From positions 1 to 64,000 of the IMG/VR virus record IMGVR_UViG_3300047557_002984: a stretch of DNA of 64,000 bases; one strand, given 5' to 3'. This stretch comes from a virus. The notes beneath the pieces were generated by a model. It was not told the DNA's origin. It was given only the letters and a program-made list of their open reading frames with translations, and made no database searches. Positions 15,772 through 40,901 of the stretch are shown piece after piece (within the stretch, counting starts at the first letter, position 1; every line of letters begins with the position of its first letter). The position numbers were made by a program, and so were the translations under genes.

Positions 15772-17037
15772 TTAGCCGTTTAATCGCTCTAGCAACTTGG
15801 CGGTCTTACCAGTCTCAGCCTCCCAGCGAGAGATGATCACATTCACGTATTTCGGCTCTACCTCGACAACGCGGGCTTTGCGGTTCGTGCGCTCGCAGGC
15901 AATAAGGGTCGTGCCGGAGCCGCCGAAGGGTTCAAATACTGTGTCGCCTAGTTCTGAGCTGTAACGAACTGCCCGTTCAACAAGTTCAACGGGCTTCATG
16001 GTTGGGTGCTCTTCTGAAACTCTTGGGCGAGGAATCTCCCACACATCATCTTTGTCTCTACCTGCGGAGTCTGAAAACGAGCTTTTACTTTTTGCGTGCC
16101 ATCCGTACCAGATAGGCTCATAGCGCCGGTGGTACTTACTGCGTCCAAGAACAAACTGATCTTTCACCCAGATCACGGTAGCCGACCAATGGAAGCCTTC
16201 AGCGCGAAGACAACTGTCAAGCGTTGGCCATTCAGATGCACCTAAGACGCAGTAAAGATCGCCCGTAAGATATTGAGCGAGTGGCCGCATAAAACCTTGA
16301 AGAAACGCTCGAAAGTCTTCAGGGGAAAGATCGTCATTTTCCAAGCCCTGTCTTTGCCTGTGCCTTGGATTTGAGTCTTTACCGATTGCTACGTTCCACG
16401 GTGGATCAGTAAAACACATCGTAGCTTTTCCATTTGCCATCACCCGCGCCACGTCTTCAGCCTTCGTGCTATCGCCACACAGCACTCGATGTTCGCCGCA
16501 TTCCCACAAGTCCCCGTACTGCACTCGCGCTTGCAATTCTTCGGGTGTTACATCAAAATCGTCTCCACCATTTCCAGGTTTAATATCTTCTACCCGCGCC
16601 AAGCTCGCCAGTAATGCCTCAATCTCATCTCGCTTATACAGCGAACTTACGTCAATCCCACTCTGCGTGTGTTCAAGCAGTATTTCCACGTCCGGCGAAT
16701 AACCGACTTCCGACGCGCGATTGTCCGCAATAGCCAATTGCCGGGCCTTGTCGCGCTCGGCTCCCTGGCCAAGCAACCGTAAGTCCGTGCGTTGGACGAC
16801 AACCAATTCGCTGCCATCGGTTTCAATCACGCGCACGGGTAACTGGTGGTTGATTGCAACCTCCAGCGTCTTGTTGCCAGCAATCACGACCCCCTCGCTA
16901 TCCGCCAGAATGCTTCGCCCCGCGCCTAGCTCGGTCAGCGACCAATCAATGACTTGCCGCCCGCGCTCCGTGCCCTTGTTCACATTAGCCGGATCAGCTT
17001 TCAGGTCGCCGACGCTTTGGATTTTCTTCTTCGCCAC
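15772..17037 (-). CDS. ParB-like nuclease domain fused to DNA N6-adenine/N4-cytosine methyltransferase
   Basis: 421 residues, GTG start with GGGAGAGGGTG upstream. Residues 1-110 are a ParB/Srx-like domain ('LKADPANVNKGTERG', 'GVVI AGNKTLE' type, 'ARQLAIADNRASE'). Residues about 180-415 are an amino-methyltransferase with 'MCFTDPPWNVAIG' (DPPW, catalytic) and 'VFEPFGGSGTTLIACE' (SAM site, FxGxG), beta-class order. It is likely to methylate phage DNA against host restriction; the target is not predictable. Lies between lysis-region genes and terminase. Confidence 0.9.
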   Translation of the reverse strand: MAKKKIQSVGDLKADPANVNKGTERGRQVIDWSLTELGAGRSILADSEGVVIAGNKTLEVAINHQLPVRVIETDGSELVVVQRTDLRLLGQGAERDKARQLAIADNRASEVGYSPDVEILLEHTQSGIDVSSLYKRDEIEALLASLARVEDIKPGNGGDDFDVTPEELQARVQYGDLWECGEHRVLCGDSTKAEDVARVMANGKATMCFTDPPWNVAIGKDSNPRHRQRQGLENDDLSPEDFRAFLQGFMRPLAQYLTGDLYCVLGASEWPTLDSCLRAEGFHWSATVIWVKDQFVLGRSKYHRRYEPIWYGWHAKSKSSFSDSAGRDKDDVWEIPRPRVSEEHPTMKPVELVERAVRYSSELGDTVFEPFGGSGTTLIACERTNRKARVVEVEPKYVNVIISRWEAETGKTAKLLERLNG

Positions 17038-24743: not shown

Positions 24744-25487
24744 CTAGGCCATCTCTGATCGAAGCCTATTAAGCACGGCTGACACATCGGCTAAAACTTC
24801 CTCGTTCGTGAACCGAATAACCCGATAACCAACACGCCTTAAATGCTCATCACGCTGGTTGTCGTAACCTTCTCTGCCATTATGAAAAGACCCGTCTATT
24901 TCCACGATGATTTTATGATCAGCGATTAAAAAATCGGCAATGTATCCATATACGGGAATCTGGGGAGCAATCCCTTGTAGCTTTTGCGATTTACAGGCTA
25001 ACCAAAAACATTCCTCGGCTGGGGTTAAATTCCGACGCATTCGATTAGCAAACTTCGCCTTTTCAGGCTTGCATTTGCTTTGCATGTCCCGCAATTCCGC
25101 AACCTGATCCCTTGATAGCTTAGCTTGACCATATCCAATTTGAGGAACAGCATCGCCCCTGGTCGTGTAACCGCCCTTATTATTTTCAGTTTCCAAGATG
25201 AATGTATATTCCCAGCTAATCCGATCTCTTTCATTGTCGGCTGATGGCATAAACCGCACTCGCTTTAAATGCTGCTTGCCTTCCAGTTCTTTTAAGACTT
25301 TTTGCAGCTTTTCTTTTCCCCAGCCAGTCTTAACCCTGAGCCAGCTCATGTAAAACTGCCAGTTCTTTGGCAAGACAGACACCATCGCCAAAAGAAAGCG
25401 AGCATCTGATGATAGACAGGTATCTAGCATCACATCAGACGATACGATGCCAAAACCGTTAGATTTTCTCTCAACCTTACAAATCAT
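24744..25487 (-). CDS. Winged-helix domain fused to DUF559 endonuclease-like domain
   Basis: 247 residues; ATG at 25487 with AGGAGAAGG. Residues 1-115 look like a replication-type winged helix ('FLLAMVSVLPKNWQFYMSWL', 'KEKLQKVLKELEGKQHLKRV'). Residues 140-247 are DUF559 (Vsr-like PD-(D/E)XK fold): 'RRNLTPAEECFWLACKSQKL', 'VYGYIADFLIADHKIIVEID' with the DF...EID catalytic pair, 'HNGREGYDNQRDEHLRRVGY', 'VIRFTNEEVL'. Monocistronic between terminator and intergenic region. Could act as an initiator-associated nuclease, a mobile endonuclease or exclusion factor; unusual fusion. Confidence 0.85.
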   Translation of the reverse strand: MICKVERKSNGFGIVSSDVMLDTCLSSDARFLLAMVSVLPKNWQFYMSWLRVKTGWGKEKLQKVLKELEGKQHLKRVRFMPSADNERDRISWEYTFILETENNKGGYTTRGDAVPQIGYGQAKLSRDQVAELRDMQSKCKPEKAKFANRMRRNLTPAEECFWLACKSQKLQGIAPQIPVYGYIADFLIADHKIIVEIDGSFHNGREGYDNQRDEHLRRVGYRVIRFTNEEVLADVSAVLNRLRSEMA

Positions 25488-25548
25488 TTGTCCTTCTCCT
25501 GCGTAAAACATTGAAGAAGGCTAAAGAGGCAAGAATGGCAGTGGATTT

Positions 25549-28366: not shown

Positions 28367-28466
28367 TCACCTCGAAGTTGAGGCGATGAAGGCGGGCCGT
28401 TGCGGAAGATGTTGCGGGTCGGATACAATGAAATCCGCTGCAAAGCTGCGCTCCATCGCAGTTTAT

Positions 28467-28503
28467 GGCTCCCGATAGCGCCTTGTAATCACTATCGGGA
28501 GCC
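28467..28503. other. 12-bp perfect inverted repeat
   Basis: GGCTCCCGATAG (28467-28478) and CTATCGGGAGCC (28492-28503) with a 13-nt spacer, no T-tract. Possible operator or RNA hairpin upstream of the membrane-protein gene. The rest of 28367-28547 shows nothing clear. Confidence 0.5.
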
Positions 28504-28547
28504 GCAGCGGTGATGATACACCTTTTGCCAAATTCCCGAAAGATGCA

Positions 28548-28571
28548 AAAGGCCAGCCGAAGCCAGCCTTT
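28548..28571 (-). terminator. Terminator of the anti-CRISPR unit
   Basis: Minus strand 10-bp stem (two G-T pairs) closed by TTCG, AAAGGCTGGC/GCTGGCCTTT, followed by a short T-rich stretch. It starts 7 nt after the stop of the gene at 28578. Confidence 0.75.
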
Positions 28572-28577
28572 CCATTC

Positions 28578-28808
28578 TCACTTTTTCTTTTTCTTCGGTT
28601 TCGGCCCTGAACCGGGCCGCGCCCCGCCGCGCTGTCTCGGTGGCAGGTCGAGCGCAAGGCGCACGATGTTCTGGTTGGTCAGCGCCGCGAAGGCGACATC
28701 ATCCAGATCGGGCGCGTTTGCGCGTGCGCGCGGGCAGATGATGTCGCGCCATTCGGCGGCGGTGAAGCGGAGCTTCTCCACGATGATGGATTCTTTTAAT
28801 GTTCCCAT
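28578..28808 (-). CDS. Small basic-tailed protein in the anti-CRISPR unit
   Basis: 76 residues. Helical N-terminal 50 residues ('IIVEKLRFTAAEWRDIICPR') and a Gly/Pro/Lys tail ending KPKKKKK. It starts 4 nt after the DUF1874 stop. The basic tail suggests nucleic-acid binding. Not recognised. Confidence 0.65.
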   Translation of the reverse strand: MGTLKESIIVEKLRFTAAEWRDIICPRARANAPDLDDVAFAALTNQNIVRLALDLPPRQRGGARPGSGPKPKKKKK

Positions 28809-28812
28809 TTGC

Positions 28813-29334
28813 TTAAATCACAGCCACCCGCTCAATCCCCTTGGCGGTAAAGGTAAATTCCTCGCCGCCCGCAACCTGAACCTCTTTCCCTCCATCAGAC
28901 GCGAAGCCAAGCAAGGGCTCTTGGCTTAACCTAGTATCAAGCAGGACAGGGCAACCATCTGCAAGATTTCGCGGCATATCTTGCGGCTTCCACCATCGAA
29001 GCGAAAACAGGTTGAATGTGATGAGCGCGCCAAAGGTAAATCCAATGGCGTGGCACTCTTCTGCTGTTAGAATTTTGCCTTCGGGCGGTCGCCCGTTGAG
29101 CTTGAAGACAATCGCCACATCTCCAAGCCGCTGCTTATATTGAATGCGATTTACCGGAACATCTTGCCCTAGCAACTCAGAGAGAATCTGCGCTGTGGCA
29201 TCGTGGCCGATGGCCGATGTCACCGTGGCGCTTGGCTGATTTACCAGCCACTGCGCTTGTTGCAATGTCAGCGGGGCATAAACGGACGCCCCGTGCGTTG
29301 TCAGGATTGACGTGTTCAGTAATGCGATGTTCAT
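28813..29334 (-). CDS. DUF1874 protein, AcrIII-1-like viral ring nuclease (anti-CRISPR)
   Basis: 173 residues. The first ~105 follow the DUF1874 (STIV B116-like) family: 'MNIALLNTSILTTHGASVYA', 'TSAIGHDATAQILSELLG', 'VPVNRIQYKQRLGDVAIVFK', 'LNGRPPEGKILTAEE'. In AcrIII-1 (SIRV1 gp29) I recall His47, Arg85 and Glu88 as active-site residues; here His44, Arg82 and Glu85 have identical spacing. AcrIII-1 cleaves cyclic tetra-adenylate and so silences type III CRISPR signalling. Residues 106-173 are an extra C-terminal region not present in the short family members. Sits in its own three-gene transcription unit with promoter and terminator. Family assignment strong; activity is inference. Confidence 0.88.
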   Translation of the reverse strand: MNIALLNTSILTTHGASVYAPLTLQQAQWLVNQPSATVTSAIGHDATAQILSELLGQDVPVNRIQYKQRLGDVAIVFKLNGRPPEGKILTAEECHAIGFTFGALITFNLFSLRWWKPQDMPRNLADGCPVLLDTRLSQEPLLGFASDGGKEVQVAGGEEFTFTAKGIERVAVI

Positions 29335-29372
29335 GATTCTCCTTTACTTCGCAGTATTACTTATGGGTTAAG

Positions 29373-29591
29373 TTACGCAGCAGGTGCTTTCTCTAAGCGC
29401 CAGACATTTCCGGGCACTTGCTGTCCGACCATGTCGGCGAGTAAAGCGGTGGCGTACACTACTGCTTCTTTTTGCCATTTACCACTAATGTTTAGAAATT
29501 CGCCTGTTTGAATGTTAACAACGCAAAAGCCCTGCTTTTGCGTTTCTGGCACGTTCGTTAATGCGCCCCGACTCAGTTCGTCGTGATACAT
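29373..29591 (-). CDS. First gene of the anti-CRISPR unit, unknown function
   Basis: 72 residues with AAGGAGAAATGT before ATG. 'QGFCVVNIQTGEFLNISGKW' then a helix 'AVVYATALLADMVGQ'. Not recognised. Co-transcribed with the DUF1874 gene, 38 nt apart, so a partner or a second counter-defence factor is possible. Confidence 0.65.
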   Translation of the reverse strand: MYHDELSRGALTNVPETQKQGFCVVNIQTGEFLNISGKWQKEAVVYATALLADMVGQQVPGNVWRLEKAPAA

Positions 29592-29662
29592 ACATTTCTC
29601 CTTGTTTTTTTACTGCGTCCTTGTTTCTCTCCGGCGACCCCATGCCGCCTTCGATGGTTTGC

Positions 29663-29690
29663 ATTATATTCAAAGTCGAACTTGAATCAA
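29663..29690 (-). promoter_or_regulatory. Promoter of the anti-CRISPR unit
   Basis: Minus strand TTGATT (29685-29690), 16-nt spacer, TATAAT (29663-29668, perfect). About 65 nt of leader precede the ATG at 29591. With the terminators at 29710 and 28548 this isolates the three genes. Confidence 0.65.
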
Positions 29691-29709: not shown

Positions 29710-29741
29710 AAAAAAAAAAGAGCCAGCCCGAAGACTGGCCC
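29710..29741 (-). terminator. Terminator after the sliding clamp gene
   Basis: Minus strand 9-bp stem GGGCCAGTC/GGCTGGCTC with a TTCG loop and a run of ten T. Ends the replication operon. Confidence 0.9.
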
Positions 29742-29764
29742 TTGCACACCACCGCGCACCATCA

Positions 29765-34307: not shown

Positions 34308-35210
34308 CTAAAACTCCTGACAGGCGCGCATAATCGCCCGCCCGATAACTTCCGCAACTTGCGGCACGATGGCGTTGCCGAGCGCCTTCAAAGAGGCCAC
34401 TCGATGCCGTCGAGCCAGTCGCTCGGAAAGCCCTGCAGCTGACTCACCCACCGGTAATTTAACAATGCGCGGCTGCTCCCATTCGTATTGAGGCTGTCCG
34501 GGTCGGGCTGGCCATTGATAACCACCGAAGCCGGAAGACAAGGCGACTTCCGCGCCTGCGCTGCGGGTTCCGTTCCGCTGTCTTTCCAGTCTCGCGTTGA
34601 GGGCGTCGGCCACAGCCGCGCAATTTGCGTTTCCAGATTCGGAAACCTGTTTGCCGCGTTCGCTATCGCATCGTCGGTTATTCCCGCTGCCATCGCGGAG
34701 CAATTTCGCGGAGTAGCCCACGAAGAAAATTCGCTCTCTTCGCTGCGATGCGCCAACGTCTTCAGCAGCCAACTCGACGGGGAACAATTCGTAACCTCTA
34801 GCCGCAAACTCACGCGCAATCCATTCGCTGAATTGCATTCCTTCAACGCAAAGTGAAGTGATTCCGCCAGGATTCTCCGCCAACACCCACACGGGTTTGA
34901 CTTCAGACACCAAGCGCAGAAAGTCAGGCCAGAGCCAGCGATGATCGGCGGCCCCTTTTCGCTTTCCGGCGACGCTGGCGGGCTGGCAGGGAACCCCGCC
35001 GCAAAGAAGGTCAACTGTTCCGCAGTGCTGGGCGACTTGAGCGCCCGTGAGCGTTTTGACATCATTCCACCTCCAAACATCTGGCCAATGCTTTGCTAAT
35101 ACTTTCTGGCAAAATGGCTCAATTTCCACCTGGCCAACGCAACGCATTCCCGCGCGCTCAAGGCCAAGATCGAAGCCACCCACCCCCGCAAAGAGAGATA
35201 AAAACCTCAT
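34308..35210 (-). CDS. DNA (cytosine-5) methyltransferase
   Basis: 300 residues from ATG at 35210. 'SLFAGVGGFDLGLERAG' (motif I, SAM), 'LLCGGVPCQPASVAG' (motif IV, catalytic Cys of PCQ), 'VWVLAENPGGI' (motif VI, usually ENV; here ENP), 'GASQRRERIFFVGY' (motif VIII), and C-terminal 'LKALGNAIVPQVAEVIGRAI' (motifs IX-X). The target-recognition region between VIII and IX is short. No partner restriction gene; protects phage DNA from host enzymes, by inference. Confidence 0.92.
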   Translation of the reverse strand: MRFLSLFAGVGGFDLGLERAGMRCVGQVEIEPFCQKVLAKHWPDVWRWNDVKTLTGAQVAQHCGTVDLLCGGVPCQPASVAGKRKGAADHRWLWPDFLRLVSEVKPVWVLAENPGGITSLCVEGMQFSEWIAREFAARGYELFPVELAAEDVGASQRRERIFFVGYSAKLLRDGSGNNRRCDSERGKQVSESGNANCAAVADALNARLERQRNGTRSAGAEVALSSGFGGYQWPARPGQPQYEWEQPRIVKLPVGESAAGLSERLARRHRVASLKALGNAIVPQVAEVIGRAIMRACQEF

Positions 35211-35214
35211 ACGC

Positions 35215-35484
35215 CTAAAACTCCGGTTGCCAGAACGTGCGCTCAACCGCGCGGCTGTCCGTGCCGCCATCGCCCGCGCTGGTGAATGCCGCTTGCTGCG
35301 CTTCGGTCAATTGCCGATTACTGGTGCGCTTTTGGCCCTTCTTGGCTGCCAGCGTCGCCAGCGTGCGCGGCTGCTTGCCCATCCGTTTGCGCATCATTGT
35401 CGTGAAATTGCGCGTTTCGCGGATCGTGGCATCGAAGGCCACGAGCACAGGATCATTGCTTAAATCAAGTTTCTTTCTTGCCAT
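35215..35484 (-). CDS. Small basic protein, unknown function
   Basis: 89 residues from ATG at 35484 (GGGAGGCAAG upstream). Basic ('TTMMRKRMGKQPRTLATLAA', 'KKGQKRTSNRQLTEAQQ'). Possibly nucleic-acid binding. Between the dCTP deaminase and the methyltransferase. Confidence 0.65.
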   Translation of the reverse strand: MARKKLDLSNDPVLVAFDATIRETRNFTTMMRKRMGKQPRTLATLAAKKGQKRTSNRQLTEAQQAAFTSAGDGGTDSRAVERTFWQPEF

Positions 35485-39586: not shown

Positions 39587-40495
39587 CTAAGTGATTGCGC
39601 CATCATTGGCGGTCAGGATTCCGTAGCCTTTGCAATGTCGGCAGACTTTCACGCCACCATCGAGCGCCTTCATTCTTTCCTCGACATAAGTATCAAGCTT
39701 CGCCTTAAGCGCGAAATAGTTTTCAGCTTCAAGCTGCGGCAAATCGCCCATCTTTAATTCGATCAGGCTGCGCTGAATTGAACGCAGAGGACTTACTGTG
39801 ACCTTGCCACGTCCGCCACTTCTGCCGGTTTTACCCGCAACGCTTTCTTGATGCTCCACGGGCAATAACTGCTTCACGTAAAACGAGTAGTCCGGCGTGT
39901 AGGAAACTTCAACGCTGTCGCCTTGTTGAGCGATGCGTTCTTTGAGTTTTTTCGTGACATACCGAAACGCTTCTTTGCTGCTTACGGCGCACGGGTATTT
40001 GTAGTAACTGACCGGATGAAAATCGAGCGCGTAGGGAAATTTTGAAATCACCTCAAAGGCAAGTGTGATCGGTTCACAGTCCTCGTCTACGATGTCAACG
40101 GTCACGTCTTCCAGCCTTAGATCGTGACTCGGTACAACGCGGCGCACCATCTGGTAAAGGCCGAAAATCTCATCATTCTTGCGCTCATCGTCGTCATCGT
40201 ATACAAAGAAATCTAACTCCACGGTCGGAGAAAGATGCGAGAGCGAGCTAAACTCCGGCTTCAGTTCGTAATGGGAAGGCTCGGTTGTTTGAGGCTTCTG
40301 AATACTGACCACCTGGGGCGCTCCACCAAGTTGCGCCGCATCTGCGAAATACCATTGCGAATTACCGGGGCATTGATTCACGGGCACCCCGTTGATTTTC
40401 AGGATGTCGCCGTATTCCACCCGCAACGGCAGGTACGGGCTGGGCTGGAAGTAGTATCTGCCGTCTTTTTTAATGGCTAGCATTTTATTTTTCAT
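39587..40495 (-). CDS. Phage protein with C-terminal CxxC motif, unknown function
   Basis: 302 residues; ATG at 40495 has GGAAGGATGG upstream, and ATG at 40504 or 40483 are alternatives. 'AIKKDGRYYFQPSPYLPLRV' start, mixed alpha/beta body, and C-terminal 'KVCRHCKGYGILTAND', half of a DnaJ-like zinc knuckle (CxxCxGxG). No family recognised. Confidence 0.7.
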   Translation of the reverse strand: MKNKMLAIKKDGRYYFQPSPYLPLRVEYGDILKINGVPVNQCPGNSQWYFADAAQLGGAPQVVSIQKPQTTEPSHYELKPEFSSLSHLSPTVELDFFVYDDDDERKNDEIFGLYQMVRRVVPSHDLRLEDVTVDIVDEDCEPITLAFEVISKFPYALDFHPVSYYKYPCAVSSKEAFRYVTKKLKERIAQQGDSVEVSYTPDYSFYVKQLLPVEHQESVAGKTGRSGGRGKVTVSPLRSIQRSLIELKMGDLPQLEAENYFALKAKLDTYVEERMKALDGGVKVCRHCKGYGILTANDGAIT

Positions 40496-40901
40496 ATTGC
40501 CCATCCTTCCACGCCGCTAGCACGCACGCCATTGTGCGCGCCTCGGCTTCGGTTTCCATCAGCGGACTAACCGCGCCTAAATCGCGGCTCTGATCCACCA
40601 TAAGGGCAAACCCAAAACGATCTTTCTCCACAGTCAGCTTGTTCCAGCCGCGTTCGGCCATTGATTCATACGCGAAAGCGGCAGATGTAAGGCGCGTTGA
40701 TGGTTCAAACCACCAGTGACGGCCTTCGTCTACCACCGTCCACGAATCGTACTCAGCCAGGTATTCCACATCCTGCATGCACAACCGCGCACAGGCTGCG
40801 TCCAAGTCCTTGCCGCGAAGGTCAAGAATGTCGCCTTCCATCAGCGCAAGGAAATCCTCGCGGGTGCGTTCGTGTGGTGCTTTTTGAATTGCTTGGCTCA
40901 T
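40485..40901 (-). CDS. Phage ABA-sandwich-like protein
   Basis: 138 residues with GGGAAGGCGCG upstream. 'DAACARLCMQDVEYLAEYDS', 'WWFEPSTRLTSAAFAYESMA' and 'EARTMACVLAAW' resemble small phage proteins of the ABA-sandwich type that are often next to replication genes. Function unknown. Confidence 0.65.
   Translation of the reverse strand: MSQAIQKAPHERTREDFLALMEGDILDLRGKDLDAACARLCMQDVEYLAEYDSWTVVDEGRHWWFEPSTRLTSAAFAYESMAERGWNKLTVEKDRFGFALMVDQSRDLGAVSPLMETEAEARTMACVLAAWKDGQYEK

Follow-up and report, generated by a model that had tools for sequence, protein, structure and literature searches.

Here, we describe a 173-aa protein encoded in a tailed-phage genome, which is very probably (roughly 85%) a phage cyclic tetra-adenylate (cA4) ring nuclease of the AcrIII-1 type that blocks type III CRISPR signalling. 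The gene lies in a stretch of 64,000 nucleotides (the window), positions 1-64,000 of the 74,321-base virus record IMGVR_UViG_3300047557_002984, where it forms part of a compact group of three genes preceded by a promoter-like site (Table 1). The protein matches the DUF1874 family profile, has the predicted fold and the catalytic residues of this family, and carries a C-terminal extension. An earlier note on this DNA had called the extension and the two small genes of the unit undescribed, and this holds for both, as no relatives of them were detected; the enzyme itself is a further AcrIII-1 of a known kind, and it is the tail that is unexplained.

Table 1. Coordinates of the features of the three-gene unit and its boundaries in the window
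Feature	Position	Strand	Remarks
Intrinsic terminator, dnaN/unit boundary	29718-29743	(-)	11-pair stem followed by 8 T
Sigma-70-like promoter, TTGATT-16 nt-TATAAT	29663-29690	(-)	10/12 matches
72-aa ORF, first gene of the unit	29373-29591	(-)	Good Shine-Dalgarno AAGGAG; no relatives
DUF1874/AcrIII-1-like ring nuclease (predicted), 173 aa	28813-29334	(-)	PF08960, catalytic residues, fold
C-terminal extension, residues ~110-173	28813-29007	(-)	Absent from other aligned DUF1874 proteins
76-aa ORF, third gene of the unit	28578-28808	(-)	Start 4 bases past the DUF1874 stop
Hairpin closing the unit, terminator-like	28545-28575	(-)	Broken T tract

DUF1874 domain and active site

The 173-aa protein matched PF08960 with an E-value of 3.6e-25 (88.5 bits, cut-off 26) over positions 1-100 of the 101 in the profile, and its DUF1874 domain comprises residues 1 to about 105-109. 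Pfam gave PF08960 only, and the PADLOC Csx16 model PDLC01147 also matched the protein (E 1.7e-20); a structure predicted for Csx16 is similar to that of the DUF1874 protein 2J6B (PMC12409355). In an ungapped alignment to 2x4i and 6scf, residues H44, R63, R82 and E85 pair with H47, R66, R85 and E88 of SIRV1 gp29, and the 6scf chain has Ala opposite His44, as expected for the H47A mutant. The AcrIII-1 spacing of His44, Arg82 and Glu85 and the AcrIII-1 family membership, both claimed previously, were thus borne out by the profile, the alignment and the fold.

Within a set of 35 viral and cellular DUF1874 homologues, window protein included, H44, R63 and R82 were conserved in all 35 sequences and E85 in 34. 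Since these residues are near-invariant in the family, any member would be expected to have them, and their presence does not count as separate evidence; they are a family signature, indicating an intact site but not marking it out as special. A second copy of the full-length protein was not found in the collections searched, and in the tree the protein grouped near its closest matches (L022, L011 and L012), with weak support for its own fork.

Predicted fold and known relatives

An AlphaFold2 monomer model of the 173-aa protein was built from the alignment of these 35 sequences. The pLDDT was about 90-97 in the domain and mostly 37-57 in the extension. PDB matches of the model were 2j6b, 6scf (AcrIII-1), 8y7g (Csx1-Crn2 with cA4), 2j85 and 2x4i, and all those with E ≤ 0.001 were DUF1874 structures; a structure search of BFVD returned I3VYU1 of phage THSA-485A. 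The modelled fold is therefore that of DUF1874.

SIRV1 AcrIII-1 (gp29; 6scf, 2x4i) is likewise viral and shares the fold and the four aligned residues, but it has 114 aa without this extension, comes from an archaeal virus and is about 20-24% identical by structure alignment. I3VYU1 of Thermoanaerobacterium phage THSA-485A, a bacteriophage DUF1874 protein that matches structurally, has a demonstrated anti-CRISPR effect, abolishing cA4-mediated immunity in a reconstituted system (PMC7371418), but is 102 aa long, lacks the extension and shows 30% identity. Closest among named phages were the DUF1874/YddF proteins of the Fusobacterium phages phiFN37, phiBB, phiKSUM and Fnu1, with 50-52% identity over the domain; these have no such C-terminal extension, that of phiKSUM being N-terminal instead. 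In Marinitoga Csx1-Crn2, the Crn2 domain has the same fold and catalytic histidine, and mutation of the active-site His495 abolishes its cA4 cleavage (PMC7293037). That protein is, however, cellular and fused to a CARF-HEPN effector, which indicates that the domain tolerates fusion, whereas the window extension (~65 aa) has no detectable relative. A 2025 survey covering 28,114 phage genomes detected AcrIII-1 in 36 of them, far more often than any other phage ring nuclease (PMC12409355).

Proposed function

By analogy with its studied relatives, the protein would bind and cleave cA4 and block immunity. In an infected host, cA4 would be produced by a type III CRISPR complex and bound by the dimeric DUF1874 domain. 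His44 would serve as the general acid, with Arg82 and Glu85 in the active site, and cA4 would be cut to linear A2 products, so that cA4-activated effectors such as Csx1/Csm6 would stay off.

Lipothrixvirus (archaeal virus) homologues are annotated as 'DNA binding protein', in line with a regulatory, DNA-binding or moonlighting protein in which the catalytic residues were retained by descent. As the strict retention of His, Arg and Glu argues for catalysis, and the family members tested are ring nucleases, we consider such a role highly improbable.

C-terminal extension

The extension, put at 68 residues in the earlier note, is present, with a length of about 64-68 residues set by where the end of the domain is placed. 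No tail like it was seen in any other DUF1874 protein aligned, and searches of phages, viral contigs, Pfam, PHROGs and fetched loci returned no relatives. It was modelled, at low confidence, as short helices and four beta strands, and could alter dimerisation or specificity.

In another viral contig, a DUF1874 protein (L015:1894-2538) is extended at its C-terminus by about 100 aa that differ from the tail described here. Together with the N-terminal extension of the phiKSUM protein, this indicates that additions to the DUF1874 domain occur.

The extension may have originated when a small adjacent phage gene became fused in frame, and it may have no role in the ring nuclease reaction, a possibility that is compatible with a ring nuclease and to which we give slightly less than even odds. 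Its lack of relatives and low model confidence fit such an origin, as does the different, longer extension in L015, since additions at this end occur. The codon-position composition of the extension, on the other hand, resembles that of the remainder of the gene, so that it is probably translated and kept, and a free-standing version was not found in the searches.

Organisation of the three-gene unit

The order of elements is dnaN, a strong terminator, the promoter, the 72-aa gene, the DUF1874 gene, the 76-aa gene and a weaker terminator, making a three-gene operon with the DUF1874 gene second plausible. All three ORFs of the earlier note and the promoter that it assigned to them were located (Table 1); the promoter was the best site of the 6.5 kb scanned, and the ribosome-binding sites are clear for the first two genes (72-aa and DUF1874).

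Terminators had been claimed on both sides. The upstream one is far stronger than chance would produce: at random, 64 kb should contain 0.05 stems of 10 pairs with T6 behind them, and only two sites of this kind are present in the window. The downstream hairpin, near 28548-28572, is weaker; although stable (-19.5 kcal/mol for the fold of 28525-28580), it has a poor T tract (TTTTGCATCTTT) and was not listed by the terminator scan. Termination there is less certain because of the interrupted T tract. A long hairpin, GGCTCCCGATAG...CTATCGGGAGCC, was also observed at 28450-28520 (-), just downstream of the unit and ahead of the next gene, in a stretch with a folding energy of -31.1 kcal/mol.

The promoter, the terminators and the tight spacing make a self-contained unit plausible, but this does not extend to a functional tie of the small genes. 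Relatives of the 72-aa protein were absent from phages, viral contigs, Pfam, PHROGs and fetched loci, and the same collections yielded none of the 76-aa protein beyond one short motif (GGARPGSGPKPK; GGARPGSGPKPKKKKK at its C-terminus) that recurs in otherwise different phage proteins. The other DUF1874 genes examined had neither gene as a neighbour, and the search for paralogues within the window found none. The small genes are present in the unit, and co-location is all that marks them as partners. It is unlikely that the extension has co-evolved with the two orphan genes as a module changing the action of the ring nuclease; such a module may, for example, tether it to the type III complex, widen its ligand range or counter a host back-up system sensing cyclic nucleotide depletion.

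Phage genome and a second counter-defence gene

The record encodes terminase, portal, Gp13-like capsid, tail, primase-helicase and DnaN proteins and is that of a tailed phage. Cas1 had no match in it, and by its location in a virus, as opposed to a type III CRISPR locus, the DUF1874 gene belongs with the viral branch.

Used as bait for related phages, dnaN gave zero matches, and the primase-helicase retrieved 45 phages with 34-44% identity. Of these, 43 records, many of which are fragments, were tested for DUF1874 and gave no match, as would be the case for an accessory gene. It was also absent from L009, a 23.7-kb contig that may be a fragment and whose capsid protein, identical to that of the phage, marks it as a close relative.

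A 305-aa protein encoded at 39587-40504 (-) resembles Gad1 (Gabija anti-defence 1), matching PF25705 (E 5.4e-15, 56 bits, cut-off 27) and the solved Gad1 structure 8u7i (E 1.2e-5 over residues 50-297). It is likely a Gabija inhibitor and thus a second counter-defence gene; the Gad1 match was found in none of the 16 other phage records tested. Its presence in the same phage fits the counter-defence reading of the DUF1874 gene.

DNA methyltransferase genes are located at 15772-17037 (-), 34308-35270 (-) and L057:6740-7780 (-), two being of N6/N4 type or adenine-specific and one of C5 type; the three possibly protect against restriction. The gene at 24744-25511 (-) encodes a 255-aa protein with a C-terminal DUF559 domain (E 1.7e-28), which also matches, less strongly, a restriction-endonuclease-like family.

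Host clues and occurrence of type III systems

Weak hints in the sequence point to a host in the Acidobacteriota. Beyond the window, at positions 65188-65628 (-) of the record (in L057:3000-3770), lies a gene whose product has a Soli_cterm domain (TIGR03437); this family takes its name from the acidobacterium Solibacter and had no matches in the 14 control genomes. Of the named phages listed, a Tunturiibacter phage gave the best E-value for the capsid protein, and Tunturiibacter is an acidobacterium.

A strong Cas10 match was present in 9 of 29 genomes carrying DUF1874, most Clostridia among them being without one; strong matches alone were counted, as the Cas10 palm profile also matches in E. 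coli. The domain by itself is therefore no proof of a type III system in the same cell, such as the earlier note predicted for the host or its relatives. Carriers without strong Cas10, and the uniqueness of the extension, would suit a retuned DUF1874 protein that, with its pocket covered or widened by the extension, removes or sequesters a different signal such as cA3, cA6 or a CBASS nucleotide. We regard this as decidedly unlikely, given that all four conserved residues are kept, favouring the cA4 reaction, and that the studied DUF1874 relatives cleave cA4 (PMC7293037; PMC12409355).

Implications

The putative cA4 ring nuclease described here is a further, diverged AcrIII-1 from a bacteriophage whose host group may be poorly sampled, and its additional C-terminal part and two orphan neighbours are directly testable. 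The DUF1874 and Gad1-like genes point to a phage with one counter-measure to CRISPR signalling and another to Gabija. A change in ligand choice or localisation, if brought about by the extension, would illustrate the retooling of a ring nuclease by phages.
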